A DNA stretch of 64,000 bases, from contig JAFZRU010000030.1 of NCBI GenBank assembly GCA_017619755.1, positions 1 to 64,000 on the forward strand, written 5' to 3'. The notes beneath the pieces are model-generated. The model was given only the letters and a program-made list of their open reading frames with translations, was not told the origin of the DNA and did not search any database. The position numbers and the translations under genes are program-made. This document shows positions 7,650-41,583 of this stretch, one piece after another. The stretch comes from Prevotella sp. (GTDB lineage: Bacteria; Bacteroidota; Bacteroidia; Bacteroidales; Bacteroidaceae). Every line of letters starts with the position of its first letter. The first letter of the stretch is position 1.

Positions 7650-7678
7650 TCACCCATCAACATCTAAGAATTTTCACT

Positions 7679-8764: not shown

Positions 8765-8770
8765 GTCCCC

Positions 8771-8821
8771 AAAGTCCTTAAAGACCTTAAAGACCTTAAA
8801 GTCCTTAAAGACCCTAAAGTT
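8771..8821 (+). repeat. Tandem 9-base repeat between nuoH and nuoI
   Basis: Five successive copies of AAAG(T/A)CCTT fill the gap (8771-8779, 8780-8788, 8789-8797, 8798-8806, 8807-8815, the last ending CCT), then a partial AAAGTT. This is the longest spacer inside the otherwise tightly packed operon. No promoter box or terminator is seen in it. Confidence 0.85.
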
Positions 8822-8837
8822 AAAAATAACAGTAAAA

Positions 8838-9368: not shown

Positions 9369-9373
9369 GGACC

Positions 9374-9883
9374 ATGGCAAATATCGTAATGTTTTGCATA
9401 TTGGCAGCCGTTATTCTTGTCTCGGCTGTGATTTGCGTCGCCACGAAAAGCTTCATGAGGGCGGCCACGTTCCTCCTCTTCGTGCTTTTCGGTGTCGCCG
9501 GCATTTATTTCCTCATCGACTACACCTTCCTTGGTGCGGCGCAGATCAGCGTCTATGCCGGAGGTGTCACCATGCTCTACATCTTCGCCATCCAGCTCGT
9601 CTCCAAACGCACGCTGCAGGGCCTCACCGAGCGCCTCAAGGGCGGCAAGATGGTGGCCGGCGCACTCGCCGCGCTTGTGGGATTTGCCATGGTGATGGTC
9701 ATTCTCCTCAAGCAGAAGTTTCTCACCCTGGCCATCCCCAATGAGGAGGTGCCCATGGAGCAGGTCGGCAACACCCTCATGGGGGCTGGAAAATACCAGT
9801 ACGTGCTGCCCTTCGAGTTCATCTCCGTCTTCCTTTTGGCATGCATCATCGGTGGAATAGTCATTTCAAGAAAGGATAAGTAA
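9374..9883 (+). CDS. nuoJ: NADH-quinone oxidoreductase subunit J
   Basis: Membrane subunit of 169 residues with about five transmembrane helices. The block YAGGVTMLYIFAIQLVSKRT around the family's pi-bulge helix fits NuoJ/ND6. It starts 5 bases after nuoI and ends 1 base before nuoK, so the three are probably translated together. Confidence 0.93.
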   Translation: MANIVMFCILAAVILVSAVICVATKSFMRAATFLLFVLFGVAGIYFLIDYTFLGAAQISVYAGGVTMLYIFAIQLVSKRTLQGLTERLKGGKMVAGALAALVGFAMVMVILLKQKFLTLAIPNEEVPMEQVGNTLMGAGKYQYVLPFEFISVFLLACIIGGIVISRKDK

Positions 9884-9884
9884 C

Positions 9885-10193
9885 ATGATACCAGTAGAAT
9901 ATTTCCTCGTATTAAGCACGCTGCTGTTTTTCATCGGCGTCTTCGGATTTGTCACCAGGAGAAACCTTATCACCATGCTTATCTCCACCGAGCTGATCCT
10001 CAACGCCGTGGATTTGAATTTCGCCGTATTCAACCGGCTGCTCTTCCCGGGACAACTTGAAGGCTTCTTCTTCACCCTCTTCTCCATTGGCGTGGCTGCA
10101 GCGGAGACCGCTGTCGCCGTCGCCATCATCATCAATGTGTATCGCAGGTTCCATAGCGACCAGGTCACCAGCATTGAGAACATGAAACTATAA
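9885..10193 (+). CDS. nuoK: NADH-quinone oxidoreductase subunit K
   Basis: Small membrane subunit of 102 residues with three transmembrane helices. GVFGFVTRRNLITMLISTELILNAVDLNF carries the conserved buried glutamates that form part of the proton path (MrpC/ND4L homology). Position and spacing after nuoJ are canonical. Confidence 0.95.
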   Translation: MIPVEYFLVLSTLLFFIGVFGFVTRRNLITMLISTELILNAVDLNFAVFNRLLFPGQLEGFFFTLFSIGVAAAETAVAVAIIINVYRRFHSDQVTSIENMKL

Positions 10194-10216
10194 CCCCGTT
10201 CAACCTATTAAGAAAT

Positions 10217-12199
10217 ATGGATTACAGTTATGCTTTTCTGATACTTCTCCTGCCGGCGCTCTCCTTCCTCGTGCTGGGGCTTTGCGGCATGAAGATGTCT
10301 CACAAGGTGGCGGGACTTGTTGGCACCACGTCGCTGGCCATCGTCACCGTCCTGTCTTATTACACGGCATTCAAATACTTTGGAGCACCGAGGCTTGACG
10401 ACGGGGCATATCCCGCCATCGTGCCTTTCAACTTCACCTGGCTGCCTCTCGGGAGGCTCAGCTTCGACATGGGCATGCTGCTCGACCCGTTGTCGGTGGT
10501 CATGCTCATTGTCATCTCCACGGTGAGTCTCATGGTGCATATCTATTCCTTCGGCTACATGCACGGCGAGAAGGGCTTCCAGCGTTACTACGCCTTCCTC
10601 TCGCTCTTCACCATGTCGATGCTCGGCTTGGTGGTGGCCACCAACATCTTCCAGATGTACCTCTTCTGGGAGTTGGTGGGTGTGAGCTCCTACTTGCTCA
10701 TCGGCTTCTACTATCAGTTGCACACCGCCGTGGCCGCTTCCAAGAAGGCGTTCATCGTCACTAGGTTTGCCGATATGTTCTTCCTCATCGGTATCCTCAT
10801 CTTCGGCTACTACACCGGCTCCTTCAGTTTCACCTTCGTCAACAACATCGACGCTGCCGGTATGGCCGTCTGTGAGCCGACGAGGGCGATGGCTGCCGGT
10901 GGGTTCATACTCCCCACGGCCTTGGTGCTGATGTTCATCGGTGGTGCTGGCAAGAGTGCCATGTTCCCCCTGCACATCTGGCTGCCTGACGCCATGGAGG
11001 GTCCGACACCTGTCTCGGCGCTCATCCACGCCGCCACGATGGTGGTGGCCGGCGTCTTCCAGGTGGCGCGCATGTTCCCGCTGTGGATTGAATATGCCCC
11101 GCAGGCCCTGCCCATCGTGGTGTGGGTGGGCGTGTTCACCGCGTTCTACGCCGCCGCCGTGGCATGTGCGCAGACCGACATCAAGCGTGTGCTGGCCTTC
11201 TCCACCATCTCGCAGATTGCCTTCATGATGGTGGCTTTGGGCGTGTGCTTGCCCGGTCATCACGGTGCCGTGCTTGACAACCACGCACAGTTGGGTTACA
11301 TGGCTTCCATGTTCCACCTCTTCACCCACGCCATGTTCAAGGCCTGCCTCTTCCTCTGCGCCGGTTGCGTCATCCATGCCGTGCACTCCAACGAGATGGC
11401 CTACATGGGCGGGCTGCGCAAATACATGCCCATCACCCATGCCACCTTCCTCATCAGCTGTCTGGCCATCGCCGGCATCCCCTTGTTCTCGGGATTCAGT
11501 TCAAAGGACGAGATTGTCACCGCTTGCTTCGAGTACAGCCCCTGGGTGGGATGGATCATGACAGGTGTTGCCGCCATGACGGCGTTCTACATGTTCCGCC
11601 TCTATTACGGCATCTTCTGGGGCACGGAGAACAAGGAGGCGCACGAGCATCACACTCCGCACGAGGCCCCGGCTTCCATGACGGTGCCGCTCATCATCCT
11701 CTCGGTCATCACCGTGGGTGTGGGTATTTACACCACCTTGGCAGGATTCCTCGGATGGGGCGGCAGCTTCGGCTCCTTTGTCTCCGCCACGGGTGAGGAC
11801 TACACCATCCATTTCAACTCCACGGTGGCCATCACCTCCACGGTCATCGCCATCTTGAGCATCTGCCTCGCCACCTATATTTATAAGGGAGAGCGGCAGC
11901 CCATCGCCGACAAGCTCTACGCCGCCATGCCCAAGCTCCACCGTGCCGCCTACAAGCGGTTCTATATGGACGAGGTGTGGCTCTTCGTCACGCACAAGAT
12001 CATCTTCAACCTTGTCTCCAAGCCCATTGCCTGGTTCGACCGCCACGTCATCGACGGGACGTTCAACTTCATGGCCTGGGGCACCAGCGAGGCGGGCGAG
12101 AGCATTCGCGGATGGCAGAGCGGCGATGTTCGCCAGTATGCCATCTGGTTCCTCACCGGCAGCGTGGCCATCACATTGTTATTGTTATGTGCATTGTAA
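10217..12199 (+). CDS. nuoL: NADH-quinone oxidoreductase subunit L
   Basis: Distal antiporter-like pump subunit of 660 residues, usual length, with many transmembrane helices and the C-terminal lateral helix region. Diagnostic segments are FWELVGVSSYLLIGFYY (catalytic Glu in TM5), AGKSAMFPLHIWLPDAMEGPTPVSALIHAATMVVAGVF and the lysine-containing block further on. It pumps ions coupled to quinone reduction. Confidence 0.96.
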   Translation: MDYSYAFLILLLPALSFLVLGLCGMKMSHKVAGLVGTTSLAIVTVLSYYTAFKYFGAPRLDDGAYPAIVPFNFTWLPLGRLSFDMGMLLDPLSVVMLIVISTVSLMVHIYSFGYMHGEKGFQRYYAFLSLFTMSMLGLVVATNIFQMYLFWELVGVSSYLLIGFYYQLHTAVAASKKAFIVTRFADMFFLIGILIFGYYTGSFSFTFVNNIDAAGMAVCEPTRAMAAGGFILPTALVLMFIGGAGKSAMFPLHIWLPDAMEGPTPVSALIHAATMVVAGVFQVARMFPLWIEYAPQALPIVVWVGVFTAFYAAAVACAQTDIKRVLAFSTISQIAFMMVALGVCLPGHHGAVLDNHAQLGYMASMFHLFTHAMFKACLFLCAGCVIHAVHSNEMAYMGGLRKYMPITHATFLISCLAIAGIPLFSGFSSKDEIVTACFEYSPWVGWIMTGVAAMTAFYMFRLYYGIFWGTENKEAHEHHTPHEAPASMTVPLIILSVITVGVGIYTTLAGFLGWGGSFGSFVSATGEDYTIHFNSTVAITSTVIAILSICLATYIYKGERQPIADKLYAAMPKLHRAAYKRFYMDEVWLFVTHKIIFNLVSKPIAWFDRHVIDGTFNFMAWGTSEAGESIRGWQSGDVRQYAIWFLTGSVAITLLLLCAL

Positions 12200-12211
12200 A
12201 AAAGTGAAGAA

Positions 12212-13717
12212 ATGAATATACTATCTTTATTTGTTCTCATTCCCGTGCTGATGCTGCTTGGCCTTTGGGTGGCCCGCACGCTCAATCAAGTACGCACGGT
12301 GATGGTGGTGGGGGCGTCCCTGCTCTTGGTATTGTCCATCTACCTGACCATCGATTTCATTCACCTGAGGTCATCGCATCCGGCCGACCTCGAACCGATG
12401 CTTTATGTTGCCAGCGTGGAGTGGTTCAAGCCGTTGCACATCTGCTATTCCGTGGGTGTTGACGGCATCTCCGTCGTCATGCTGCTGCTGTCGAGCATCA
12501 TCGTCTTCACCGGCACCTTTGCCTCCTGGCAGTTGAAGCCACTCACCAAGGAGTATTTCCTCTGGTTCACGCTTCTCAGTTCCGGTGTCTTCGGCTTCTT
12601 CATCAGCACCGACATGTTCACCATGTTCATGTTCTACGAGGTGGCCCTCATCCCCATGTACCTGCTCATCGGCGTGTGGGGCAGCGGCGCCAAGGAGTAT
12701 TCAGCCATGAAGCTCACCCTCATGCTCATGGGTGGTTCGGCCCTCCTCATCCTCGGCATCCTCGGCATCTACTTCTTCAGCGGGGCCTCCACGATGAACG
12801 TCATCGAGATAGCCCAGCACAACGCGCTGCCGGGCATGGAGATCAACCACCATGTGCAGAACATCCTCTTCCCCTTCGTCTTCATCGGTTTCGGTGTGCT
12901 CGGGGCCCTCTTCCCGTTCCACACTTGGAGTCCCGACGGTCATGCTTCGGCGCCCACCGCCGTCTCCATGCTCCACGCCGGTGTGTTGATGAAGCTCGGA
13001 GGCTATGGCTGTTTCCGCATCGCCATGTTCCTGCTCCCCCATGCGGCACAGGAACTGTCGTGGATCTTCATCATCCTCACCACCATCTCTGTGGTATATG
13101 GAGCGCTCTCAGCTTGTGTGCAGACGGACTTGAAGTACATCAACGCCTACTCCTCCGTCTCCCACTGCGGCCTGGTGCTTTTCGCCATCCTCATGATGAC
13201 GCGCACCTCTTGCACCGGCGCCATCATCCAGATGCTCTCCCACGGCCTCATGACAGCCCTCTTCTTCGCCCTCATCGGTATGATTTACGGGCGCACGCAC
13301 ACGCGTGACGTGAGGAAGTTGGGTGGACTGATGAAAATCATGCCTTTCCTCGCCGTGGGCTATGTCCTGGCAGGTCTGGCCAACCTCGGCTTGCCGGGCT
13401 TCTCCGGCTTCGTGGCCGAGATGACCATCTTCGTGGGCTCCTTCGAGAACAACGACGTCTTCCACCGCACGGCCACCATCATCGCTTGCGGCTCCATCGT
13501 CGTCACCGCCGTCTATATCCTGCGTGTGGTGGGAAAGATTCTCTATCAGAAGGTGGCCGACCCGCACTATGAGCATCTCACCGATGCCACATGGGACGAG
13601 CGGGTGGCCGTTTGCTGCCTCATCTTCTGCGTTGCCGGCCTCGGCTTGTTCCCCCTCTGGGCAAGCAATGTCATCTCCGACGCCGTGGCTCCCATCCTCA
13701 CCGTCATTCATCCTTAA
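12212..13717 (+). CDS. nuoM: NADH-quinone oxidoreductase subunit M
   Basis: Second antiporter-like pump subunit, 501 residues. FMFYEVALIPMYLLIGVWG holds the conserved glutamate, and FPFHTWSPDGHASAPTAVSMLHAGVLMKLGGYG is the classic NuoM signature. It follows nuoL by 12 bases. Confidence 0.96.
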   Translation: MNILSLFVLIPVLMLLGLWVARTLNQVRTVMVVGASLLLVLSIYLTIDFIHLRSSHPADLEPMLYVASVEWFKPLHICYSVGVDGISVVMLLLSSIIVFTGTFASWQLKPLTKEYFLWFTLLSSGVFGFFISTDMFTMFMFYEVALIPMYLLIGVWGSGAKEYSAMKLTLMLMGGSALLILGILGIYFFSGASTMNVIEIAQHNALPGMEINHHVQNILFPFVFIGFGVLGALFPFHTWSPDGHASAPTAVSMLHAGVLMKLGGYGCFRIAMFLLPHAAQELSWIFIILTTISVVYGALSACVQTDLKYINAYSSVSHCGLVLFAILMMTRTSCTGAIIQMLSHGLMTALFFALIGMIYGRTHTRDVRKLGGLMKIMPFLAVGYVLAGLANLGLPGFSGFVAEMTIFVGSFENNDVFHRTATIIACGSIVVTAVYILRVVGKILYQKVADPHYEHLTDATWDERVAVCCLIFCVAGLGLFPLWASNVISDAVAPILTVIHP

Positions 13718-13730
13718 ACACTGAAGAGAA

Positions 13731-15185
13731 ATGAATTACAGTCAATTCCTACATATGATACCAGAGGCCGTGTTGATGGCCGTCTTAGTAGTGCTGTTCA
13801 TCGCCGACTTCGCGTCCGACAAGGACGAGCGCCGGCCATGGTTCAACCTCTTCGCCACAGTGCTTTTCGGTTTCCTCACGCTGGTCTGCGCCCTTCCCTT
13901 GGCGCCGCGGACGGCGTTCGGAGGGATGTATGTCTCCAACGACTCCGTGCAGGTGATGAAGGCCATCCTCGCCCTCGCCACGCTCATCGTTGTCATCATG
14001 AGCCGGCAGTGGATTTCCCGCGAGGAGGGTCGTCATCGTGAGGGCGAGTTCTACATGCTCGTCGCTTCCACGCTGCTCGGCATGTTCATGATGATGTCGG
14101 CAGGGCATTTCCTTATGTTCTACCTCGGCTTGGAGATGGCTTCCATCCCCATGGCGTGCCTCGTGGCACTTGACAAGCACCGCAACAACTCCGCCGAGGG
14201 TGCGGCCAAGTACATCCTCACGGCGGCATTCTCCAGCGGCGTGATGCTCTTCGGTCTCTCGTTCATCTACGGGGCTTGTGGAACGCTCTATTTCGGCGAC
14301 GTGTCGGCCAACCTTCACGCCAACACGCTCACCATCATGGGCATGGTGTTCTTCTTCAGCGGTCTGGGCTTCAAGATTTCCTTGGTGCCATTCCACTTCT
14401 GGACAGCCGATGCCTACGAGGGTGCGCCCACCGTCGTCACCGGATACCTTAGCGTCGTCTCAAAGGGTGCTGCGGCCTTCACCTTCGCAGCCATCCTCTT
14501 CAAGGTCTTCCCGGCGCTCTACACACAGTGGCACTATTTCCTCTACATCGTCATCGTGCTCAGTATCACCGTGGCCAACCTCTTCGCCATCCGTCAGAAG
14601 GACCTCAAGCGCTTCATGGCCTACAGCTCCATCTCGCAGGCCGGCTACATCATGCTGGCCATCACTGGCGAGCAGACAATGGGCATCACCGCGCTCTCGT
14701 TCTACGTCCTGGTGTATGTGGTGGCCAACCTGGCCGTCTTCTCCGTCATCAGCGTAGTGGAGCAGAACAATGGAGGCGTGACTAACATGGATGCTTACGA
14801 CGGCTTCTACACCACCAACCCGAAGCTCTCGTTGCTCATGACCATCGCGCTCTTCTCCCTCGCCGGCATACCGCCTTTCGCCGGTATGTTCAGCAAGTTC
14901 TTTGTCTTCATGGCGGGCGTGAGCGGACATACCTTCGACACGAGGATAGGTACGTTGGCGTATCTCGTCGTCTTCATCGCATTGGTCAACACCGTGGTAA
15001 GCCTTTACTACTATTTGCTCATCGTCAAGGCCATGTACATCAAGAAGACGGAAACACCACTGCCCACCTTCCGCAGTGACAAGAACACCAAGCTGGCCCT
15101 CGCGCTATGCACTGCGGGCATCGCCGCATTCGGCATCCTCAGTTGCATCTACGAGTGGATTTATTACTCAGCCGACAAGTTCTAA
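13731..15185 (+). CDS. nuoN: NADH-quinone oxidoreductase subunit N
   Basis: Third antiporter-like subunit, 484 residues, last gene of the operon. [20 protein letters not shown] and [34 protein letters not shown] identify NuoN. It starts 13 bases after nuoM and is followed within 20 bases by a strong hairpin, so the operon ends here without any nuoE, nuoF or nuoG. Confidence 0.96.
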
Positions 15186-29799: not shown

Positions 29800-30969
29800 T
29801 TAATCCCACACATATATCCAGTAGTCGGTCAGGATGGTCATCCACACCGAACTCATCTCGCGCAGGATGTAGTATTGCACGCTCTCCCCGCCGAAGAGGC
29901 GTATGTAAAGTTCCAAACCCTCGTCGGTGGCCACGATGCAGTGGATTTCAGGGGCGTGCTCCATGAAGTTGCCCTCGTCATCGACAAACCATATCGACTG
30001 GTCTTCGTCGCCGGCTGTTCCATGGAATTCCCAAGTGGAGACCACTTCACCCTCAGCTATGCAGACGAGAGCCGCCAATGCGTCTTTGCCTTGGTGCTCG
30101 AACTGCACGGCATAGAACGAGCGTTCCGCCGTCTCTACGGAGGCGAGCCATCGGCTTTCCTTGATGCGGCGGCCGCCGTAGTAGTCGCTGATGAGGCGGC
30201 ATGCGTATTCTCCGGCTTTTTTTATTGGCTCGCCATCCTTCCATCTGCTGTATTGCAGCAGTATGTGGTGGTCGAAGAAACTGTTTTTCACCACCCAGGG
30301 GCATATTTCCACGTCGTTGTAGCCGCGAAACATCTTGGCCACGATGGAGGGGGTGTTGAGTTTGAAAGTGTAGTTCATGTTGTCCTTCAGCACCGTTCCA
30401 TTCTCATCGACTTTCTTGTCTGGGTTCTGTGAAGTTAACCGCACGCTATTCTTGTGGGGCTTGAAAATCATTTGGTTGTATGCCTTGATGTCGGCGATGC
30501 GCTCGGGGCCTTCCACCACCGTCTTGAAGATGTTGGCGTTCTTGGAGGCTTCGCGCACGGGGAGAGGTCGCTCGCGCAGGGTGATGTCGTTGGCGGGTGT
30601 CTTTGAACGGCCGAGGTCGTTGAGGTCGCGCCAGTAGATTTCTTCGGACAGCACGTTCTTGCCCACCACTTGTGCCTTCAGGTTGTTGCCGGAGGGGGTG
30701 AGCATCACCATGGACTTTTCATCCATTGTGGAGAGAAGGAGTGCATAGCCTAAGGGTGAGGCTTGCTGTTGTGGCAGGAGGCAGTATTTCTGTGGATGGA
30801 TGGTGGTGCCGGCAAAGCTGTTCTCAAAGTGCATGATGGCTGCCTCGCACTTGTCGGCATACCATTGATTGGCCTTCGTTTCTCTTTCGTAATCGTCCTG
30901 GGCCTGCAGGGCGGTTGTGATGGACAGCAAGGCTGTCAGCGTGATGATGATTTGCTTGAGGTGTCTCAT
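29800..30969 (-). CDS. Secreted protein of unknown function, end of the PqqD cassette
   Basis: The 389-residue product carries a clear signal peptide (MRHLKQIIITLTALLSITTA, cleavage after LQAQ) and no recognised domain. The mature part is mixed alpha/beta with several Trp- and Tyr-rich strands near the C terminus. It lies last in a same-strand run with the PqqD-like, Sec11-like and HPrK-like genes, but a strong 17-bp hairpin separates it from pqqD, so its expression may differ. The ATG at 30969 was chosen because the signal peptide starts there; the open frame extends 11 codons further upstream. Confidence 0.7.
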   Translation of the reverse strand: MRHLKQIIITLTALLSITTALQAQDDYERETKANQWYADKCEAAIMHFENSFAGTTIHPQKYCLLPQQQASPLGYALLLSTMDEKSMVMLTPSGNNLKAQVVGKNVLSEEIYWRDLNDLGRSKTPANDITLRERPLPVREASKNANIFKTVVEGPERIADIKAYNQMIFKPHKNSVRLTSQNPDKKVDENGTVLKDNMNYTFKLNTPSIVAKMFRGYNDVEICPWVVKNSFFDHHILLQYSRWKDGEPIKKAGEYACRLISDYYGGRRIKESRWLASVETAERSFYAVQFEHQGKDALAALVCIAEGEVVSTWEFHGTAGDEDQSIWFVDDEGNFMEHAPEIHCIVATDEGLELYIRLFGGESVQYYILREMSSVWMTILTDYWIYVWD

Positions 30970-30987
30970 GATGTCTTTGGTGTAAAG

Positions 30988-31022
30988 CAAGCGGTGCGTC
31001 ACCCCGGGTGATGCACCGCTTG
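30988..31022 (-). promoter_or_regulatory. 17-bp hairpin between the PqqD-like gene and the secreted protein gene
   Basis: CAAGCGGTGC (30988-30997) pairs with GCACCGCTTG (31013-31022), continued inward by seven more pairs (one wobble) to a 3-base loop. On the minus strand no T-run follows, so it is more likely an mRNA-stability or processing element than a plain terminator. Confidence 0.6.
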
Positions 31023-31042
31023 TGTGAATGATGCTTTTGTTG

Positions 31043-31330
31043 TTACGGCTCTACGATTTCGGCCTCCAACCATTTCTGTACGAGGGCCTCCACGTCTGCT
31101 CTCACCGCGTTGGGGTCGAGCGGACTTTCGTCCTCATTCTGATAGTTTTCCACCAAAAGCTTCACCAGGTCGTCGATGGTGAATTCCTTTCCGCTGACTT
31201 TTTCCCAAAGGAAGGCGGAGGTCTCGTTCATGCTGATGACGTTGGTGTAGTCGATGTTCTCTTTTCCCTCTGCTACCATGATCTGCTCACCGCAAATCTC
31301 GCGCAGGGCGAATCCTGTCTTTGCTTTCAT
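31043..31330 (-). CDS. PqqD-like peptide chaperone
   Basis: The 95-residue product matches the PqqD/lasso-B1 fold: GFALREICGEQIMVAEGK, a strand block TNVISMNETSAFLWEKVSGKEFTIDDLVKLL, then a helical tail VRADVEALVQKWLEAEIVEP. PqqD-type proteins bind the leader of a ribosomally made peptide and present it to modifying enzymes. No PQQ genes are near, so the classic PQQ role is not supported. The start overlaps the Sec11-like gene stop by 4 bases (ATGA), implying coupled translation. Confidence 0.87.
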   Translation of the reverse strand: MKAKTGFALREICGEQIMVAEGKENIDYTNVISMNETSAFLWEKVSGKEFTIDDLVKLLVENYQNEDESPLDPNAVRADVEALVQKWLEAEIVEP

Positions 31331-31971
31331 TGTTGTCTATTATTTATGGTTGTTTGTTTTTTTTTGCCGTATTTTGCCACCAACTCGTCGATGGCTTCTT
31401 GTTTCAGGGGTGGGTATGCCTTGAGCTTGAAGATGTTGAGCCATCCATAGCGGTAGGCAAGGAGGAGCCAGCGGCGCATGAAGGTGAATTTCACCCAGAA
31501 CCAGGAGTAGGCCTTCCATTTCAAACCGTCGGTTCTGTCCACTTTCAGTCGGCCCTTGCGGATGAAGCCGATGACCCCGCAGCGGAAGTCGGAGGTCTTG
31601 CAGTATTCGCAGCCGAAATTGCCATCGCCCATGAGGGTGACGTCGTCGTCTTCGATTTTCATGATGCGATGCAGCACATAATGCCCTTTCTCTATCTCTG
31701 CAAGCACGGGGTCGCCCACTTTCACTCCTTCCGGCGTGGTGAAGATGGCCAGGTCGCGTTCGTTTTCCAAGAAGGGCCGCATGCTGTTGCCTCTCAGGCG
31801 CAGGGTGCAGGTCTTGCCTTTCTGCACATCTTCGATGAGCAACGGGAATAGAATGGCGTTGGGGATGGGGACGTTGTTCTCCAACCCTCTGTCCACGGAG
31901 CGGTTACCACCGTCGTGGCGTCTCACCCTGGCCACGATGCGGTCACTGAAGGTTTTGGGTTCTTTTGGCAT
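31327..31971 (-). CDS. S24/S26 peptidase, Sec11/SipW-like signal peptidase
   Basis: The 214-residue product has the serine-peptidase core LRLRGNSMRPFL (Ser63 nucleophile), then VLHRIMKIEDD with His101 where the eukaryotic/archaeal Sec11 and SipW enzymes use His instead of the bacterial Lys, then LMGDGN, equal to the TKGDNN box of that group. Three cysteines (121, 124, 131) follow at once, an odd addition that might bind metal. No N-terminal membrane anchor is visible; a Trp/Phe-rich amphipathic stretch near 150-180 may contact the membrane. Its job in this cassette is probably to cleave a precursor (inference). Confidence 0.8.
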   Translation of the reverse strand: MPKEPKTFSDRIVARVRRHDGGNRSVDRGLENNVPIPNAILFPLLIEDVQKGKTCTLRLRGNSMRPFLENERDLAIFTTPEGVKVGDPVLAEIEKGHYVLHRIMKIEDDDVTLMGDGNFGCEYCKTSDFRCGVIGFIRKGRLKVDRTDGLKWKAYSWFWVKFTFMRRWLLLAYRYGWLNIFKLKAYPPLKQEAIDELVAKYGKKKQTTINNRQQ

Positions 31972-31981
31972 GGCTGGCAGG

Positions 31982-32881
31982 TTATTTCACTGCGATGGCG
32001 GCGTTGCACACCTCTGCCGCTTCCCTGTTGGGTAGGCAGTGGAGGATGCTCACCTTGGTTTTCTGAACGATTTTCGACACGGTGTCACCCACGCGGTGGT
32101 AAGTGGGTACATCCCATTTGAGGGAGGAGCACGATGGCAGCACGGAGGTGAATGCCTCGATGGGTGAGAGCGGCTCCACCCAGTTGTGGTCATCGCGGTC
32201 GATGCGTGTGAGAGCTCCCAAGGGAGCCTTGATGTTTCGGTAGCAAGGTGTCTTTCCACTCCATGGGCTTCCATAAATGTATGGCTTTCCGTCAATGACG
32301 CGTATGACGGGGTTGTCGTCGTTCATCAGGTCGCAACCGGGGAGGAAACGCAGCCACATGCTCACTTGTGTGGACTTTCCCGTTCCACTGATAGCGTGGA
32401 AGGCGTATCCGTAACCGTTCTGTCTCACCAACGATGCGTGTATGAGGACGGTGTCCTTGAAACTCCCTGCCACGGCATAGCTGAGCATCATGGCATTGTG
32501 TATGCCGAAGCTTCGCATATCGTAGTTGCCGGTGAGTGCGCATTTCACTTGCTTTCCATCTGGTGTGATTTGAAACATGCTGCATTCGATGCCTTGCATG
32601 TCCTTGAAGATGAACTGGTGTCCTCCCACTTCCAGTTCGTCCACGATGATGCTTCCGTTGCCGGTTTCAAACTCCCTGATGCGCTCCCTTTGTGCTTTGG
32701 GAATGGGTTTGAGGTCGTCGTCGATGGTGATTTCGAAAAGCAGTTCATGACCTTCTGCACTATCCACCAGGAAGGGGTAGTATGAGCGCATCAGGTTCAT
32801 GTTGTTGTGCTTGGTGTCAAGGAAATTGACTTTCACATAGTGTTCGCCTATGCAGAAAAACCTTGTTTCTTGATTGTTCAT
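31982..32881 (-). CDS. HPr-kinase-like P-loop protein
   Basis: The 299-residue product has an HPrK-type P-loop HAISGTGKST (162-171), the paired acidic residues after it (LMNDDNPVIRV, about 185-195) and a core fitting the C-terminal kinase half of HPr kinases. The N-terminal 140 residues are a different beta-rich domain. Relatives of this type occur beside PqqD homologues in lasso-peptide and other peptide-modification loci. There is no HPr gene near. ATG at 32881 chosen; a TTG at 32908 overlapping the previous stop would add 9 residues. Confidence 0.8.
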   Translation of the reverse strand: MNNQETRFFCIGEHYVKVNFLDTKHNNMNLMRSYYPFLVDSAEGHELLFEITIDDDLKPIPKAQRERIREFETGNGSIIVDELEVGGHQFIFKDMQGIECSMFQITPDGKQVKCALTGNYDMRSFGIHNAMMLSYAVAGSFKDTVLIHASLVRQNGYGYAFHAISGTGKSTQVSMWLRFLPGCDLMNDDNPVIRVIDGKPYIYGSPWSGKTPCYRNIKAPLGALTRIDRDDHNWVEPLSPIEAFTSVLPSCSSLKWDVPTYHRVGDTVSKIVQKTKVSILHCLPNREAAEVCNAAIAVK

Positions 32882-32904
32882 GAGTTGGATGGGTTGGTTG
32901 CTTG

Positions 32905-33459
32905 TCAATGGCGGGGTGGGATGGTCGGGGGCAGCTCGTCGCCGTTAGCGGCGCGCTTCGAGGACTCCAATGTCCCGCTCTTTTTCTTCTTTTTCGATTT
33001 CTCCGCCCGCTTGGCGGCTTTGGTGTCGATGGTTGTCTCTTCGGCCCCCTCGTGATGCTCGGCTGTGAAGCGGAACTCCTCCTCGTCAAGGATGCGAATG
33101 TCGTAGTTGCTGGGACGCTTCTTGGTGCCGTTGAATTTTTTGCGCATCTTCTCGTATTTCTTCAGGATGTCTTTCTCCTTGGTGGCGAAGCTGACGAGGC
33201 AAGTGCGTGCGTCGAAGCCTCTGCCGGAGAAATGACTTTTCAGTTGGTTGGAGTAGTTGGAGCGACCTTCCAAGAAGCCGGTCTTTTCGTCCACCCATGC
33301 GCTGTCGAGAATTTGTATCTCAGTGATATAGACCACGGAGTCGTTGAACGATGCCGAGGTGCCGAAGATGTAGATGGGTGTGCAGCGCACCTTCCCCACA
33401 GCCGCGATGCTCGTCAGCATTATGGCTCCCAAGACGATGGCTAAAAATGTTTGTCTCAT
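32905..33459 (-). CDS. Secreted basic-tailed protein of unknown function
   Basis: The 184-residue product starts with a signal peptide (MRQTFLAIVLGAIMLTSIAA). It has an early cysteine (VRCTPIYIFGTSASFNDS) and a second in ARTCLVSFATKEKD, and a central alpha/beta region, then a very basic tail with KAAKRAEKSKKKKK. No family is recognised. It is the first gene of the HPrK/Sec11/PqqD run, 23 bases before the HPrK-like gene, and follows rpoD by 41 bases. It could be a substrate of the cassette, but nothing direct shows this. Confidence 0.65.
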   Translation of the reverse strand: MRQTFLAIVLGAIMLTSIAAVGKVRCTPIYIFGTSASFNDSVVYITEIQILDSAWVDEKTGFLEGRSNYSNQLKSHFSGRGFDARTCLVSFATKEKDILKKYEKMRKKFNGTKKRPSNYDIRILDEEEFRFTAEHHEGAEETTIDTKAAKRAEKSKKKKKSGTLESSKRAANGDELPPTIPPRH

Positions 33460-33500: not shown

Positions 33501-34367
33501 TCATTGGCCCAGGTAGGTTTTGAGGAGCTTGTTTTTGGTGTTGTGGCGCAGCCTCCTGATGGCTTTCTCCTTGATTTGCCTGACGCGCTCTCGTGTGAGG
33601 CCGTATTTCTCACCTATCTCCTCGAGGGTCATCTCTGGTTGGTTGATGCCGAAGAATGCCTCGATGATGCGCCGCTCTCGCTCGCTGAGCGTCAGCAGGG
33701 CGCGGTTGATTTCGTTGCGCAGCGACTCCATCACGAGTTCGGTGTCCGCCATGGGGGAGTCGGTGTTGGGTAGGATGTCGAGAAGGCTGTGTCCCTCCCC
33801 GTCGTCCACAAAGGGTGCATCCACGGAGATGTGCTTGGTGTTCACTTTCAGGGCATCCTCTATCTTGTCCTGGGGGAGGTCCACGCTTTCAGCTATCTCG
33901 TCAATGCTTGGGCGTCGCTCGTTCTCCTGCTCAAACTGGTTGAGGATCTTGTTGATTTTGTTCACCGAGCCCACTTGGTTGAGTGGCAATCTCACGATGC
34001 GGCTTTGCTCTGCAATGGCTTGCAGGATGCTTTGTCGTATCCACCAGACGGCGTAGGAGATGAACTTGAAGCCCCTGGTTTCATCGAACTTTTCCGCTGC
34101 CTTGATTAATCCCACGTTTCCCTCGTTGATGAGGTCGGGGAGGCTCAGGCCGTGGTTTTGATATTGTTTGGCCACAGAGACAACGAAACGCAAGTTGGCA
34201 CGGGTGAGTTTCTCCAATGCCTGTCGGTCGCCTTTCTTGATGCGTTGGGCGAGCTCCACCTCCTCCTCAACGGAAATCATCTCTTCACGGCCTATTTCTT
34301 GCAAATACTTGTCAAGAGAAGCACTCTCTCGATTCGTAATTGATTGTGTGATTTTCAGTTGTCTCAT
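33501..34367 (-). CDS. rpoD: Primary sigma factor RpoD (sigma-ABfr type)
   Basis: The 288-residue protein is a group 1/2 sigma-70 without region 1.1. It shows region 1.2 ([16 protein letters not shown]), region 2 ([57 protein letters not shown]), region 3, and region 4 with the helix-turn-helix [28 protein letters not shown]. This short form is the housekeeping sigma of Bacteroidetes and would recognise the TTTG/TAnnTTTG promoters seen across the window. It lies downstream of htrA and has its own promoter. Confidence 0.95.
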
Positions 34368-35943: not shown

Positions 35944-36442
35944 TGTTTTTGGTTTTTATTTATTTTATGTTGATACTTGTTTGCTTTGTTGTTGTCGTTG
36001 CTTCCTTGAGGCTTGTCAACGACGGGGTATAACCCGCTTTGTCATGTGCAAATTTAGACCCAATTTTTGTTAATCTGCCATTTCACCCCAAATATTTGTC
36101 CTCTTTTAACAATCATTCTATTCCTATTAACTATCATTTGGTTGTTTTAAATACTATTTTACGTTTCTTCACGTCATGCAAGCCTTTGTTGGCATGTCAT
36201 TTTGTCACTCCTTTTCTGTCTTTTCAACTATGGTGGCTTGGCATGGACTGTTGATGTGTCGCAAATGGTACAAGGAAGGTGTTGAAATGGTTCTTCGCTC
36301 CTTGGAAAGGGGTGGAGGTGTTATAAAAATAGGTAAAAGTCAAGTCGAAATGTTTTTTTCCCGATTTTCAGCCCATTGTTTCGAAATTTTTTCATATTTT
36401 TGTCGGTCAATATTACTATTCCTAATGGAAAATGTTTCCGAC
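35944..36442. other. Divergent control region between htrA and the C10 protease
   Basis: No gene is supported. On the minus strand TAAATTTG (36049-36056) is a -7 candidate for htrA, giving a leader of about 100 bases; no good -33 box was found. On the plus strand TATTTTTG (36395-36402) is a -7 candidate for the C10 protease gene. The AT-rich middle (36060-36180) shows no other structure. Confidence 0.5.
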
Positions 36443-39400
36443 ATGAGAAAAAAGGTAACGACATCCCTTCTTCTGCTATGGGTCGCCACGACACTCGTGG
36501 CGGGTCCTGTCACCCGGAGCCAGGCTTTGGGCAAGGCGAAGGAGTGGGTCGCCCGTTTTGCCAAGAACGGTGCGTCGGAACGACTCTCATGCAAGGCAGA
36601 ACGGGTGGACAACCTGCCATGTTATGCTTTCGACATCGGACAAGGCGAGGGGTTTGTCATCATGGCCGGTGACGACCGTCTTACTTCCGTTTTGGGATAT
36701 GCCGAAACCGGCAGTTTCGACTTACAGGCCATGCCCCCGGCTCTGAAGGCGTGGCTAAGGGCTTGTGGGGAGGAGTTGGAAGGTCTCGACAATGGTTCTG
36801 ACGGTGCGGCCTCCCGCCCCGTCAGGGTGGTGGAGCATACGCGTGGTGCCATTGCTCCGATGGTGTCCTGCACGTGGAACCAACAGGAGCCTTACTCCAA
36901 CAACTGCCCTGATTTCAAGAATGAGGGGAAGTGTGCCACCGGTTGCGTGGCTACTGCCATGGCTCAGTTGTTGTATTATTACCGAGACCAAAACGTGAAA
37001 ACCATCCAGGAGGCCATCGCCTCTTACACATGTGCCACCAACTGGTCGGGATATGGCAAGATATCCGTTCCGGGGGTGGCCAAAGGCACGGCTATTGACT
37101 GGGACCACCTCCTTGCTGTGTATAACGGAACGGAGACAGCGGAGGAAACGGAGGCAGTGGCCAATCTGATGTTTTATTGTGCCGCATCCGTCAAGACGGA
37201 GTTCATGGGTGCTTCCAGCGGAAATTCCTCCGCCAGCAATAACAACATCCCCATTGCCTTGAAAAAACAGTTTGGCTTCTCCAAAGAGTGCTGCCTCAAG
37301 GATCGCTCCACATTCGCCATCTCTCAATGGGAGGAGATGGTTTACGATGAGTTGAAGGCCGGTCGCCCCGTCATTTACACAGGAAGGTCGGAGAGCGTCG
37401 CTCATTGTTTTATCGTGGATGGATACGACGGCGACGGTCTCTTCCATATCAATTGGGGATGGGGAGGGCTATACAACGGCTATTACAGCCTCTCCACCCT
37501 TTCGTGCGTGGAAGGCAGCACCACCAAGGGCTATACCATGTCGCAGTACGCCATTTTCGGTGCGCGACCGGCGGGGGCTGCTGACGAGTATGCTACGTTG
37601 TCTGCCTCCGGCTTGTCTCTTTCCGGCTCCACGCTTTCCTTCACCATGACCAACTATTCTGGCGTGGCCGACAATTTCAAGTTCGGAGTGGCCGCCGTGC
37701 TTGACGACGGCTCACTCGCATTGCTCAAGCAGTCCTCTTCCTACATTTATATGGCTGACAGGACCAAGCGGTCTGTCTCCTTCACATTGGCGAAGACCAA
37801 CTTGTCTTCGCTTCAAAAGGGAGAATACCGGGTGGCCCCCGTCTTCTGCCGCAAGGGTGACGATGAGTGGAAGTTGGCTGACTGTTCTCTTGAATATTCT
37901 TTTTGGCTCTTGTGGGACGGCTCTACATTCACCCTGTCATACAACTCACCCAACAGCGGGAGGGTGTTTTCTGCTTCCGGTTTCCAATTCCCCGCCAATC
38001 CCGTGAAGGGGATGAAGGTGCCGGTGAGCATGACGCTCTCGTGTTCCAGCGGTGAGTACAGTAGCGAGGTGTATCTCTTTGCCAGCACCACAACTACAGC
38101 CACCACTTATGATAGCAAGACCGGCGTGTATCTGAAGGATGGCGAGCAATGCGACGTCTCCCTCTATTTCTCGCCGACGAAAACAGGCACCTACAACGTA
38201 TGGGTGGCCACTGACGCTAATGGCCAGAATTCCATCGGGTCGTGTAAGATAAAGGTGACAGAGGCCGGCACGGGGGGCGAATTGTCTGTTGCGAGTTTTA
38301 CGGTGGACAACGCTGTGACTTCCGGAGAGTGGAACACCGTTTACGGCAAGGTGCTACAAGGCACCATCACGCTCAAGAACATAGGATCCTCGCTGTATTC
38401 CGAAATCATCACCATCTGGCTCATGAAGGGCGCCACCAAGAGTTATTATTTGGGAAGCACCAGCGACAAGCAACTCATCACGTTGGCCCCGGGTGAGAGC
38501 ACGACCATCCACTACGCCTACGATGAAGGTGAGACTGGCAACTATTACCAATTGTGGCTGATGAAGGGAAGTGCCATCATCACCAACGGAAAGGTGAGGT
38601 TTTTCGAACTGGTGCCTTGCGTCACCATTTATGACAGCGAGGGACGTTACACGATGGTGAAGCCGACGAAAACCTTCACCGTGCCACAGGATGCGACAGC
38701 CATTGACCTTGATGGTGCCGGTGTGAGTACCGTGAAGCCCAACAGCAACCCCAACACCTTGTATTTCATAGGGGGGACCGACGCCACGCCTTCTGGTTTG
38801 AAGGGATGTAACTTGGTGAAGGCCGGCGTGGCGGAGCGAGTGACGCTTTCCGATGGATACGATTTCTTCACCCCCATGGGTTTCCATGCTGCTGACATCT
38901 CCTACACTCGCACGCCTCAGCTGCAGACATCGGGCAAAGGCGGTTGGGAGACGATAGTGCTGCCCTTCCCCGTGGAGGAGGTGACCAACGTCACCGACGG
39001 GAGGGTCATTGACTGGTATCACAGCTCTGATGATATCGGCAAGGATTTCTGGCTCAAGGAGTATGCTTTACAGGATACGGAGAGTGGAAAGGTGTTTTTC
39101 AACCATGTGGAACAGTTCCGCCCGCATGTGCCTTACATCATCGCCGTGCCTTCCGACAGATGGGGCGAGGATCACGACCTCACCGGAAAGAAACTGCGCT
39201 TCCATGCCACGGACGTGGAGGTGGGGGCCGATGCCAAACTCATGGTGACGTCGAGTGTCTATCGCTTCGAAGGCACTTACGCGGAGACAGCGATGGACAA
39301 CATCTACATTCTCAACAGCCAAGGCTCTTCGTTCATATACACAGCACAGTCCGTTCTGACACCATTCAGGGCATGTTTCCGACCGACGGGGGGAAGCGTG

Positions 39401-39592
39401 GCTCATTCCTCCTTGGCCATCGGCGACTTCTCCTTGGCAGACGGTGTCGAGGAGGTGGAGTGCATGGCTCCATCGGTGGACATTTACAGCATCAGTGGTA
39501 TGAAAGTGGCCACGATGGACGGCACCAACGGATTGGCCGGTCTGCCCAAGGGGGTGTATGTGGTGAATGGACGGAAGCGGGTGGTGAGATGA
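36443..39592 (+). CDS. Secreted C10-family (streptopain-like) cysteine protease
   Basis: The 1049-residue protein has a signal peptide (MRKKVTTSLLLLWVATTLVA), a Spi/inhibitory propeptide-like segment (about 18-110) and the C10 catalytic domain. The nucleophile Cys lies in CATGCVATAMAQLLYYY, the His in SVAHCFIVDGYDG, and the conserved Trp in HINWGWGG. The rest is beta-sandwich-like repeats, ending in a tail VDIYSISGMKVATM..LPKGVYVVNGRKRVV of the kind used as C-terminal sorting or anchoring signals in Bacteroidetes. It is probably an exported protease acting on host or dietary protein. ATG at 36443 chosen for the signal peptide; an in-frame ATG at 36425 is possible. Confidence 0.88.
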   Translation: MRKKVTTSLLLLWVATTLVAGPVTRSQALGKAKEWVARFAKNGASERLSCKAERVDNLPCYAFDIGQGEGFVIMAGDDRLTSVLGYAETGSFDLQAMPPALKAWLRACGEELEGLDNGSDGAASRPVRVVEHTRGAIAPMVSCTWNQQEPYSNNCPDFKNEGKCATGCVATAMAQLLYYYRDQNVKTIQEAIASYTCATNWSGYGKISVPGVAKGTAIDWDHLLAVYNGTETAEETEAVANLMFYCAASVKTEFMGASSGNSSASNNNIPIALKKQFGFSKECCLKDRSTFAISQWEEMVYDELKAGRPVIYTGRSESVAHCFIVDGYDGDGLFHINWGWGGLYNGYYSLSTLSCVEGSTTKGYTMSQYAIFGARPAGAADEYATLSASGLSLSGSTLSFTMTNYSGVADNFKFGVAAVLDDGSLALLKQSSSYIYMADRTKRSVSFTLAKTNLSSLQKGEYRVAPVFCRKGDDEWKLADCSLEYSFWLLWDGSTFTLSYNSPNSGRVFSASGFQFPANPVKGMKVPVSMTLSCSSGEYSSEVYLFASTTTTATTYDSKTGVYLKDGEQCDVSLYFSPTKTGTYNVWVATDANGQNSIGSCKIKVTEAGTGGELSVASFTVDNAVTSGEWNTVYGKVLQGTITLKNIGSSLYSEIITIWLMKGATKSYYLGSTSDKQLITLAPGESTTIHYAYDEGETGNYYQLWLMKGSAIITNGKVRFFELVPCVTIYDSEGRYTMVKPTKTFTVPQDATAIDLDGAGVSTVKPNSNPNTLYFIGGTDATPSGLKGCNLVKAGVAERVTLSDGYDFFTPMGFHAADISYTRTPQLQTSGKGGWETIVLPFPVEEVTNVTDGRVIDWYHSSDDIGKDFWLKEYALQDTESGKVFFNHVEQFRPHVPYIIAVPSDRWGEDHDLTGKKLRFHATDVEVGADAKLMVTSSVYRFEGTYAETAMDNIYILNSQGSSFIYTAQSVLTPFRACFRPTGGSVAHSSLAIGDFSLADGVEEVECMAPSVDIYSISGMKVATMDGTNGLAGLPKGVYVVNGRKRVVR

Positions 39593-39640: not shown

Positions 39641-39676
39641 ATTAATAAGGAAATATGAATTAATAAGGAAATATGA
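39641..39676 (+). repeat. 18-base tandem duplication over a start region
   Basis: ATTAATAAGGAAATATGA occurs at 39641-39658 and again at 39659-39676. Each copy holds an AAGGAAAT ribosome-binding-like sequence and an ATG; only the second ATG (39673) opens the real gene, the first meeting a stop after two codons. Confidence 0.85.
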
Positions 39677-41583
39677 AAATTGGAATATTCAAGATGGTGG
39701 CTGTTGTCGCCATGGGGTGGTGCTCCATGCATGCCGGAGCACAGCAATTGTCAATGAGCGGAAACAAGGAGTCGTTTGCACCGGGCGATGACATAGCCAT
39801 CAACTACGAGGGTGCCGCCAAGGGCGACAAGATACTGCTCTATCACAACTTGGCCATGCTTCCCTTGAAGGAGAAGGGTGTGACGGCAGCCGACAAAGGG
39901 GTGTATCAAGTGGCTGCCCCGCTTCAGTTTGGCGACTACCGGGCTGTCCTGGTGAACAAGGACGATATGGAGATGTCGCAGGTGTCTTTTGTCGTGGAGG
40001 AAGAACCGCTTCCCACCGAGGGTCATCGGGTCTGCCTTCTTTCCGACATACACGTGTTGAATCCCGAATTGGTGGAAAATCTTGACAACTATTATTTCGT
40101 GAGGGAAATGGGCAACAACAGGAAATTGCAGGTGCAAAGTTATGAGATTTTTTGCGCTTACATCGACACCATCAAGGCGCTCAAGCCGGAACTGCTGCTC
40201 ATCCCGGGTGACTTGACGAAGGATGGGGAGGTGCTCAGCCATCAGTGCGTGGCACAGAAATTGCAGGAACTGTTCGACATGGGCATTCCCACCCTCGTCA
40301 TCCCCGGCAACCATGACATGGAGAACGAACAGGGTTTTCACTACACGATGGACGGGCGTGAGAATGCAGAGACAGCCACACCGGAGACCTTCGAGCAGAT
40401 ATACTGGAATTTCGGATACAAAGACCCCCTCGCACGCGACCCCAACTCCTTGTCATACGTCTGCGAACCCATCGATGGGTTGCGCTTCATCGGCATCGAC
40501 GACTGCCGCATCCCCAGCCGTGGCGATACGAAAAAGGGCATTGCCGAATATGGACGCATTCTTCCAGAGACTTTGGAGTGGGTGTTGGAGCAGGCCGACA
40601 AGGCCTCTGATGAGGGGAAGGTGGTGATAGCCGCCGTGCATCACCAGATGCTGCAGCACTACGTGGACCAGGAGAAGCTCATGGAGACCTCCGCCACGGA
40701 GAAAGGCGACAGCATTGCCCGTCTCTTCGCCGACCACGGCATCAGGGTGGTGCTCACAGGGCACATGCACATGCCCGATGTCTCCAAAATCAAGGGCTTC
40801 ACCACAGACAACACCATCACCGAAATCAGTTCCTCATCCCCCATATCCTATCCCAGCCAGTTCCGCGTGCTGACCATCAGCAACGACTTGGCCACCATGA
40901 GGGTGGATACGCGCTCGTTGAAAGCCACGGAGAGCCTCCCCAACCTGCAACAGGCGGCAAAGGATAAAATCGATGAGACGCTCGATACTTCCATCAGCCA
41001 ACTCACCTACCGTTACATGTCCACTTTCAACGCCATGCTCAAGGACTTGGCTTCCATTCCCGACTTTGCCCACATCATTGACGACGTGCCTACGGATGTC
41101 AACGAATTGTCCGCCATTGCTTTGGAGGCGTTTGGAGAGACCTTGCGCAAGGTGATTTACACCCACGCGGAGGCCAACGAGCATCTCAAGGATGCCGCCA
41201 AGGTCGTCCTCGAACAGTTGGAGGATGACTGCGACACGGCTTGCAATCTCATTTTCGACCAGCAGAACGAGAGCACACGCGCTTTCCTTTCATACGCCAT
41301 GTATGGATACATGCTTGAAATGGGAGAGCCGGCCATCAAGAGCATGCTTAGCGACACCTCCTATCTTGGCACGTCGATGGCCGACCAGACCGACGATCTC
41401 TACCTCACCGTCGCCTTGAAGGACGTGGATGAAGGGGTGGCGTCGGTGCTGGCGCATGGGGAGGGCATCAAGGGCGTGTACAGCATTACTGGTCAAGCAG
41501 CTGGAAATTCGGTGGCTGGCTTGCCCAAAGGTGTTTACATCGTATGGAAGGACGGGAAGGCTCGTAAAGTGACGGTGAAGTGA
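39673..41583 (+). CDS. Secreted calcineurin-like metallophosphoesterase
   Basis: The 636-residue product has a signal peptide (ends HAGAQ), then an N-terminal beta domain, then the phosphoesterase core with all metal motifs: LLSDIHVL (DxH), IPGDLTKDGE (GDxx), IPGNHDME (GNHD), VVIAAVHHQM and VLTGHMHMP (GHxH). The C-terminal part is helical and ends in IKGVYSITG..LPKGVYIVWKDGKARKV, a short sorting-tail-like module. It is probably a periplasmic or surface phosphatase of unknown substrate. It lies 80 bases after the C10 protease and may be co-transcribed. Confidence 0.87.
   Translation: MKIGIFKMVAVVAMGWCSMHAGAQQLSMSGNKESFAPGDDIAINYEGAAKGDKILLYHNLAMLPLKEKGVTAADKGVYQVAAPLQFGDYRAVLVNKDDMEMSQVSFVVEEEPLPTEGHRVCLLSDIHVLNPELVENLDNYYFVREMGNNRKLQVQSYEIFCAYIDTIKALKPELLLIPGDLTKDGEVLSHQCVAQKLQELFDMGIPTLVIPGNHDMENEQGFHYTMDGRENAETATPETFEQIYWNFGYKDPLARDPNSLSYVCEPIDGLRFIGIDDCRIPSRGDTKKGIAEYGRILPETLEWVLEQADKASDEGKVVIAAVHHQMLQHYVDQEKLMETSATEKGDSIARLFADHGIRVVLTGHMHMPDVSKIKGFTTDNTITEISSSSPISYPSQFRVLTISNDLATMRVDTRSLKATESLPNLQQAAKDKIDETLDTSISQLTYRYMSTFNAMLKDLASIPDFAHIIDDVPTDVNELSAIALEAFGETLRKVIYTHAEANEHLKDAAKVVLEQLEDDCDTACNLIFDQQNESTRAFLSYAMYGYMLEMGEPAIKSMLSDTSYLGTSMADQTDDLYLTVALKDVDEGVASVLAHGEGIKGVYSITGQAAGNSVAGLPKGVYIVWKDGKARKVTVK

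Follow-up and report, generated by a model that had tools for sequence, protein, structure and literature searches.

A kinase, peptidase and PqqD gene trio of Prevotella as the probable enzyme core of an LPP-like peptide pathway with scattered precursors

Background

LPPs (linear polyphosphorylated peptides) are ribosomally synthesized and post-translationally modified peptides (RiPPs) that were characterized experimentally in Bacillota, where lppA-K-B-S-D-N clusters encode LppA, an HprK-like kinase (LppK), a RiPP recognition element (RRE; LppB), a SipW-like leader peptidase (LppS), an MsbA-like protein (LppD), and an NTP transferase (LppN) (Popov et al. 2026, PMC13381572). LppK phosphorylates Ser3 of the core multiply, LppS and LppB are both needed for leader cleavage, and binding depends on a YxxP motif; the final product and its role were not found in that study. 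LPPs are called 'restricted to Bacillota' in its discussion, the SpI peptidase cluster is placed 'predominantly' in Bacillota in its results, and the words Bacteroid and Prevotella are missing from its main text (PMC13381572). Here, a 64,000-nt stretch of DNA from Prevotella sp. (GCA_017619755.1, contig JAFZRU010000030.1, positions 1-64,000; hereafter the window) was analysed, in which the genes of an HPr-kinase-like protein (KIN), a Sec11/SipW-like peptidase (PEP), and a PqqD family protein (PQD) follow one another on the minus strand. This trio probably supplies the core enzymes of a RiPP pathway of the LPP kind, acting in trans on scattered precursors.

The window shares with the LPP systems an HprK-like kinase, a discrete PqqD-type RRE, and a SipW/SpI-like Ser-His leader peptidase, and related Bacteroidales loci add an ABC exporter and an NTP transferase to this core. 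The candidate precursors described below likewise have a YxxP leader and a variable core, in most cases with a conserved Ser at Tyr+19-20 (Tyr+18 in LPPs). In contrast to LPP clusters, the window locus has the K, S, and B components only and is without exporter, nucleotidyltransferase (NTase), and precursor, and was therefore not filed as an LPP cluster, although it would work like one. The Bacteroidales precursors are dispersed, with up to 21 per genome, and often lie behind genes of secreted proteins; their leader ends in LL(A/T)GS, whereas that of LPPs carries FETxxS (consensus YxxPxVLxHQxIxFETxxS). Moreover, the window locus has a fixed place behind rpoD, whereas LPP loci are patchy and linked to capsule genes.

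The paeninodin and pseudomycoidin lasso clusters (A, C, K, B1, B2, N, D; PMC8498205) share a kinase and a PqqD-type B1 with the window locus, a nucleotidyltransferase and an ABC exporter with related loci, and a Y/WxxP-type leader with the candidate precursors; they differ in that the window locus lacks the cyclase C and the transglutaminase-like B2 and has a Sec11-like peptidase instead. SynChlorMet loci (NCBIfam TIGR04248/TIGR04249) share the pair of HPrK-like and PqqD-like proteins, whereas the window locus has no radical SAM gene and scores below their cut-offs. No account of a Bacteroidetes locus combining PqqD, a signal-peptidase-like protein, and HPrK was found in the literature listings and passages that were available.

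Results

Identity of the three proteins

Gene identities and linkage, and the existence and distribution of the peptide open reading frames (ORFs), were observed directly. PQD matched PF05402 above the cut-off (E 1.7e-13), and a PDB search with its family profile led to TfuB1, a B1 protein of lasso biosynthesis (E 7.8e-4). A further PDB search gave four matches up to E 10, with 9X90 (PbaB1) at E 0.036 and no chain of 9X8Z (LppB).

PEP matched the S24-like peptidase family PF00717 (E 7.4e-6, 26.1 bits against a cut-off of 23.3), and its family profile found SEC11A in the PDB (7p2p, E 6e-5). Related loci were taken from a contig scan as the best 80 of at least 533 relatives, many of them titled as herbivore-gut Bacteroidales assemblies, and are referred to as the named loci. 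When the window protein was aligned with 56 of the 72 peptidases from these loci, Ser63, His101, and D116 were invariant (57/57) and D128 was present in 45/57; either Asp may correspond to D93 of LppS. The window protein lacks an N-terminal signal anchor, its best 19-residue hydropathy being 0.78, and has helices at its C-terminus, from which a cytosolic active site is expected. At the level of fold, Foldseek placed LexA/lambda-type S24 domains above signal peptidases.

KIN had no HPrK-type match in Pfam (at most a domain of unknown function below threshold). Its family profile detected HPr kinase 1ko7 in the PDB (E 6.1e-5), ranked behind P-loops of ABC transporters, and His148, SGTGKST (165-171), and NDDNP (187-191) were invariant in all 42 aligned sequences, a selection from 80 found. 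The AlphaFold2 model (pLDDT 96) was matched by Foldseek to PEPCK first and to HPrK structures lower down, which gives support at the level of fold.

It is scarcely credible that the trio is a degenerate lasso or PQQ/SynChlorMet-type cluster. Such a reading would account for the lasso B1 protein as the nearest PDB relative of PQD and for weak matches to ScmC and ScmD. The curated NCBIfam cut-offs for ScmC, ScmD, and HprK_rel_A were nevertheless missed (17.3, 17.6, and 20.9 bits against 125, 100, and 200; for KIN against HprK_rel_A, E 1.6e-4 and far under the cut-off), and lasso B2 (PF13471) had no match in the source genome and exceeded the cut-off in 5/100 relatives (1/60 of the genus). No radical SAM or Asn-synthetase gene was present among the neighbours over 24-41.6 kb (ORF list and Pfam search of seven neighbouring genes), and no Asn-synthetase-like cyclase C was found beside the locus (the same seven genes and the 24-40 kb ORF list; no genome-wide search was made). 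Filing under lasso, PQQ, or SynChlorMet was rejected on these grounds, in agreement with an earlier note on this DNA that had held it not to be a standard lasso or PQQ locus.

Linkage and extent of the unit

The five minus-strand ORFs listed in the earlier note, namely the trio and the genes of two secreted proteins (SEC1 and SEC2), are all present at their places, and the overlap between PEP and PQD is real (4 bases, ATGA). KIN and PEP are separated by 10 bases and SEC2 and KIN by 23. The gene neighbourhood was surveyed in two sets. The genus set consisted of 60 genomes, of which 34 had the locus at the window place as judged from kinase and SEC2 positions; the window and 20 fetched loci of the 33 others were examined (n=21). 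KIN, PEP, and PQD occurred together in 21/21, following rpoD and SEC2 each time, and 19/21 kept the KIN-PEP-PQD arrangement in both order and strand. Records of the rumen laboratory strains Segatella baroniae B14 and Prevotella ruminicola KHT3 hold related loci (L106 and L113). Among the 80 named loci, PEP was near KIN in 77, PQD in 69, and both in 66.

Such a fixed place behind rpoD could mean that the trio serves regulation or housekeeping within the rpoD operon, with HPr-type Ser kinase control and signal-peptidase-like proteolysis and with no peptide product, as could the missing exporter at the locus. In a kinase tree built by a quick method, the label for the rpoD/SEC2 place needed one change, and the 27 kinases of such places (window, 20 genus, and 6 named loci) fitted a single origin, on a branch almost without support (2); the 21 genus rows and L134 formed a branch with support 100. 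This reading is nonetheless quite improbable, in view of the absence of the kinase from 10/60 genus genomes and of homologues elsewhere that sit with exporters, NTases, and precursors. In addition, the rpoD-SEC2 pair was intact and closed up without the trio in 10/10 fetched sites, which comprised six genomes with SEC2 and without KIN, PEP, and PqqD (G020, G032, G042, G043, G053, and G056) and four with the trio elsewhere in the genome (G007, G018, G031, and G055). These natural empty sites indicate that SEC2 belongs to rpoD.

The earlier note had counted both secreted proteins as members of the cassette, and this part did not hold. SEC2, which adjoins the kinase in 34/60 genus genomes, was found in 53/60; no SEC1 turned up at the 20 fetched genus loci (loci only; no genome-wide search was made), and it lies beyond a hairpin of 35 nt (-26.4 kcal/mol, z -5.7, 0/200 shuffles as stable). 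A terminator scan that required a T-run did not call this hairpin. The empty sites, the missing SEC1, and the hairpin rule out SEC1 and SEC2 as unit members, and the unit is the KIN-PEP-PQD trio alone. That the trio processes one of these flanking proteins is very improbable: the adjacency of SEC2 and the kinase would favour it, whereas SEC2 also occurs where all three trio genes are missing, SEC1 has the distribution and position just given, and both proteins start like ordinary signal peptides (by eye).

Related loci and gene fusions

SEC2 was present in 6/80 named loci. In the 74 others, several of the named loci stopping at contig edges, an ABC exporter was found within 4 kb in 54 and a nucleotidyltransferase in 16, and PEP, PQD, and ABC occurred together in 47. 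By Pfam search of one representative each, the exporter consists of ABC_membrane and ABC_tran and the nucleotidyltransferase belongs to PF14907. In distant genomes (L170, L185, L192, and L193) the gene order was shuffled and the content largely kept.

Three kinds of fusion tie the peptidase, PqqD, the exporter, and the kinase into one process. The source genome encodes a PEP-PqqD fusion of 251 aa, which has a hydrophobic stretch at the N-terminus plus a Cys (L057 6255-7010, minus strand, contig C43). PEP-ABC fusions were found in three genomes (L075 1-4610; L181 5095-7398, minus strand; L182 6892-9168, plus strand), and radical SAM-kinase fusions of about 660-680 aa were identified by Pfam at L164 5008-7011 and L165 6630-8609.

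Candidate precursor peptides

Three loci (L194, L195, and L198) carry ORFs of 53-62 residues between PqqD and the kinase with YIxPxxxxIxID in common. The widened family, mostly of 40-70 residues, has a leader of the type MKKxYxxPxxxVVE, usually with LL(A/T)GS after it, and then an acidic tail that varies. A leader hidden Markov model (HMM), built in iterations, was run over 26,836 small ORFs from 155 loci, including the window; it returned 32 ORFs at E<1e-6, then the weaker L194, L195, and L198 ORFs, and then noise, the E-values being flattered as members feed the profile. By hand count, 17/80 named loci hold at least one leader peptide. Applied to whole genomes at E up to 0.01, the leader profile was positive in 51/100 relatives (49/60 genus, 2/40 others), with up to 21 peptides per genome. 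In an initial screen of the kinase surroundings for small ORFs under conservation, the top families contained reads apparently out of frame with conserved genes; the precursors emerged only from the distant loci and the leader HMM.

A site made of a hydrophobic pair, any residue, a small residue, and Ser or Thr was present in 66/86 distinct peptides of known genome type and began 15-16 residues past the Tyr in 61/66, where the pattern required only at least 12. YxxPx and a Ser at Tyr+19/20 occur in most peptides, and the HQ and FET of the LPP leader are missing (by eye). LAGS fits the AxA rule of signal peptidases loosely, and an alignment with LPPs (Ser at core +3) fits equally. None of eight tested peptides exceeded a Pfam or NCBIfam cut-off; one matched the lasso precursor model NF033528 weakly (E 0.0047, below cut-off). 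Trp near the peptide end was weakly associated with the window-type locus (28/41 vs 16/37, p 0.039).

For 59/94 distinct peptides, an ORF on the same strand with 120 residues or more ends within 150 bases, and in 49 of these 59 that ORF has a KGxYI-type tail. This tail, KG(L/V/I)YIxNGKKVxxK, is found on large secreted proteins just before leader peptides, and no family model names it. Two similar tails occur in the window, on a C10 peptidase (36176-39592) and a phosphoesterase (39673-41583), both on the plus strand, with no peptide behind. The KGxYI tails may resemble type IX sorting tails.

The source genome was searched with this leader profile at E up to 10, which gave ten places: C43:85565 and nine dispersed ORFs. 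Two near-identical YxxP peptides of 40-41 residues (L057/C43 7120-7242 and 7527-7652, minus strand) lie directly upstream of the PEP-PqqD fusion and are within the 32 ORFs at E<1e-6; they have ICEPS at the site and Ser at Tyr+19/20. The nine dispersed ORFs (54-69 residues) have a YxxP leader at the start and a Trp near the end, and these shared termini argue against chance. All nine follow a same-strand ORF of more than 400 residues, with a gap of -1 to 42 bases in eight and 153 in one, and 7/9 of the preceding ORFs end in KG(L/V/I)YI..GKK or a near variant (by eye; L239, L241, L242, and L244-L247). When these seven secreted proteins were searched for a sorting domain, NCBIfam gave 0/7 and Pfam a single sub-threshold starch-binding module (1/7).

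Co-occurrence of the trio and the leader peptides

One draw of 344 genomes across the order was searched with the peptidase profile (E up to 1e-12) and with the leader profile, with no correction for relatedness. The peptidase was found in 33, leader peptides in 18, and both in 14 (14/33 vs 4/311, Fisher p 7e-13). Once the four genomes that had contributed their own peptides to the leader profile were left out, the association was 10/29 vs 4/311 (p 3e-9), and named loci feeding that profile may share species with other genomes of the draw. A single PqqD is encoded in 30 of the 34 genus genomes that have a locus of the window type; it lies at this locus in 29 and on another contig in G048. No other candidate for reading the YxxP leader is known in these genomes, and 24 of the 30 carry leader peptides (by hand count).

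Several observations weigh against a trio acting on the scattered YxxP family. The leader HMM found no precursor anywhere in the window, extending the statement of the earlier note that none was visible in the gaps, and 0/21 genus loci of the rpoD/SEC2 type had an exporter or NTase within 4 kb. The leader after YxxP is unlike the LPP consensus, and 20/86 peptides are without an LL-A-G-S-type site. In the source genome the C43 pair are the only strong peptides and lie beside a different peptidase-PqqD copy; the nine dispersed ORFs score E 0.009-1.3, and eight have no LL-x-G-S-type site, the ninth having one further on. The source-genome peptidase may prefer another sequence, or some of the dispersed ORFs may be due to chance. 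Within the genus the association was weaker, with leader peptides in 42/49 PEP-positive and 7/11 PEP-negative genomes (p 0.10). G032, a genome 97% complete, carries a pair of leader peptides, the best at E 3e-11, and no trio, and no peptide was detected in 6/30 single-PqqD genomes, of which two (G016 and G024) are 99% complete.

A trio that does process peptides and has another precursor as its substrate would suit the lack of an adjacent precursor at the window locus, the leader peptides of some trio-negative genomes, strong in G032, and the weak scores of the dispersed source-genome peptides. That alternative is unlikely, given the order-wide co-occurrence of peptidase and leader peptides, the leader peptides beside PEP, PqqD, or KIN genes in the source genome and the named loci, and the single PqqD of most window-type genomes. 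In genus genomes at least 90% complete (n=33), peptides accompanied PEP in 27/29 vs 1/4 (p 0.007). Leader peptides were present in 43/50 PqqD-positive and 6/10 PqqD-negative genus genomes, and five of the six PqqD-negative carriers are at most 79% complete, the sixth being G032.

Variant loci

The PEP-PqqD fusion of the source genome is unusual in that its PqqD domain could be located outside the cytosol. PqqD and peptidase matches also share one 271-aa frame in G049:C252. With their Sec11-like peptidase N-terminal to the ABC exporter, the PEP-ABC fusions appear to be counterparts of the C39 peptidase-containing bacteriocin exporters that use a different type of peptidase. Loci with radical SAM-kinase fusions have PqqD, nucleotidyltransferase, ABC, or peptidase genes nearby; at L166 and L167 the fusion was judged by length alone.

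At L200 (8651-9851, minus strand), an array of five short ORFs, rich in Cys, Gly, and Ser and each with a YQxPELxDLNN leader, likely encodes radical-SAM RiPP precursors; the locus also holds two radical-SAM-like genes, a kinase, a peptidase, a nucleotidyltransferase, and an ABC exporter. A divergent kinase copy with a nucleotidyltransferase was seen at L058 (G049:C134) 7278-14692 and at L056 6326-8371 (source genome, C56). The former adds a radical SAM protein, PqqD, and capsule-export genes (Wza/Wzc-like, by eye), a setting that recalls the capsule context of Bacillota LPP and lasso loci. Kinases from records titled Fibrobacter (L091, L096, L097, and L100) nest among those of Bacteroidales, pointing to gene transfer or misbinned contigs. 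At L066, L093, L114, and L122, PqqD lies upstream of the kinase or is present in two copies, which suggests duplication or paralogous leader readers.

Features of the locus

The features are listed in Table 1. Along the minus strand the order is HtrA-type protease, rpoD, SEC2, KIN, PEP, PQD, and SEC1, from the ORF list and, for the protease and rpoD, from Pfam. The neighbours over 24-41.6 kb encode a helicase, a competence protein, the sigma factor, the HtrA-type protease, the C10 peptidase, and the phosphoesterase. The start of SEC1 is most likely the ATG at 30969.

Table 1. Coordinates of the trio and its immediate surroundings in the window
Feature	Position	Strand	Description
SEC1	29800..30969	-	Secreted protein beyond hairpin, outside unit
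Hairpin	30988..31022	-	3' of PqqD, likely transcript end, without T-run
PQD	31043..31330	-	PqqD family discrete RRE, LppB/B1-like, 95 aa
PEP	31330..31971, stop codon 31327-31329	-	Predicted Sec11/SipW-like Ser-His leader peptidase, LppS-like, 214 aa
KIN	31985..32881	-	HPr-kinase-like P-loop protein, LppK-like, 299 aa
SEC2	32905..33459	-	Basic secreted protein, context, outside unit
rpoD	33501..34367	-	rpoD-type sigma-70 factor (Pfam Sigma70 r1.2, r2, r3, r4), syntenic neighbour

Discussion

Processing of a ribosomal peptide by the PqqD protein, the Sec11-like peptidase, and the HPrK-like kinase, as proposed in the earlier note, is well supported by the linkage of the genes, the LPP counterpart, and the leader peptides. 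The overall interpretation given there thus stood in its peptide processing, its separation from lasso and PQQ loci, and its lack of a precursor in the gaps, and fell in its inclusion of the secreted proteins. It had missed the likely precursors elsewhere in the genome and the identity of the gene set with the LPP enzyme core.

The biochemical steps of binding, phosphorylation, cleavage, and export can be proposed from homologues. By analogy with lasso and LPP structures, PqqD would bind the YxxP of MKKxYxxPx(hydrophobic) leaders on peptides from scattered genes. The kinase would phosphorylate a Ser just past it, most likely the one conserved in LL(A/T)GS at Tyr+19-20; this Ser, present in the C43 pair as well, parallels the phosphorylated Ser3 of LPPs at Tyr+18. 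The PqqD-peptide complex would be handed to the cytosolic Sec11/SipW-like Ser-His peptidase for a cut within or next to LLAGS, which would free the acidic, variable core. Export and further tailoring may be carried out by proteins encoded away from the window locus; the operons of related loci include an ABC exporter and a nucleotidyltransferase of PF14907.

More tentatively, a fixed trio of Bacteroidales may mature up to dozens of scattered peptides, many of them behind secreted proteins with the KG(L/I/V)YIxNGKKVxxK tail, so that every surface protein would be produced together with an acidic peptide of its own, phosphorylated and trimmed. This extended version is possible and somewhat less likely than not to be correct as it stands.

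Conclusions

The LPP-type trio is so far known experimentally only from a different bacterial group, the Bacillota. If the proposal made here is true, a RiPP pathway described as limited to that group would reach the dominant Bacteroidales of gut and rumen, and a large family of small ORFs without a name would be explained. The core would act on dispersed precursors instead of those of a compact cluster, and genome mining that assumes a precursor beside the enzymes would miss such systems. Direct tests would become possible, in which a named peptide is bound, phosphorylated, and cut by three named proteins.

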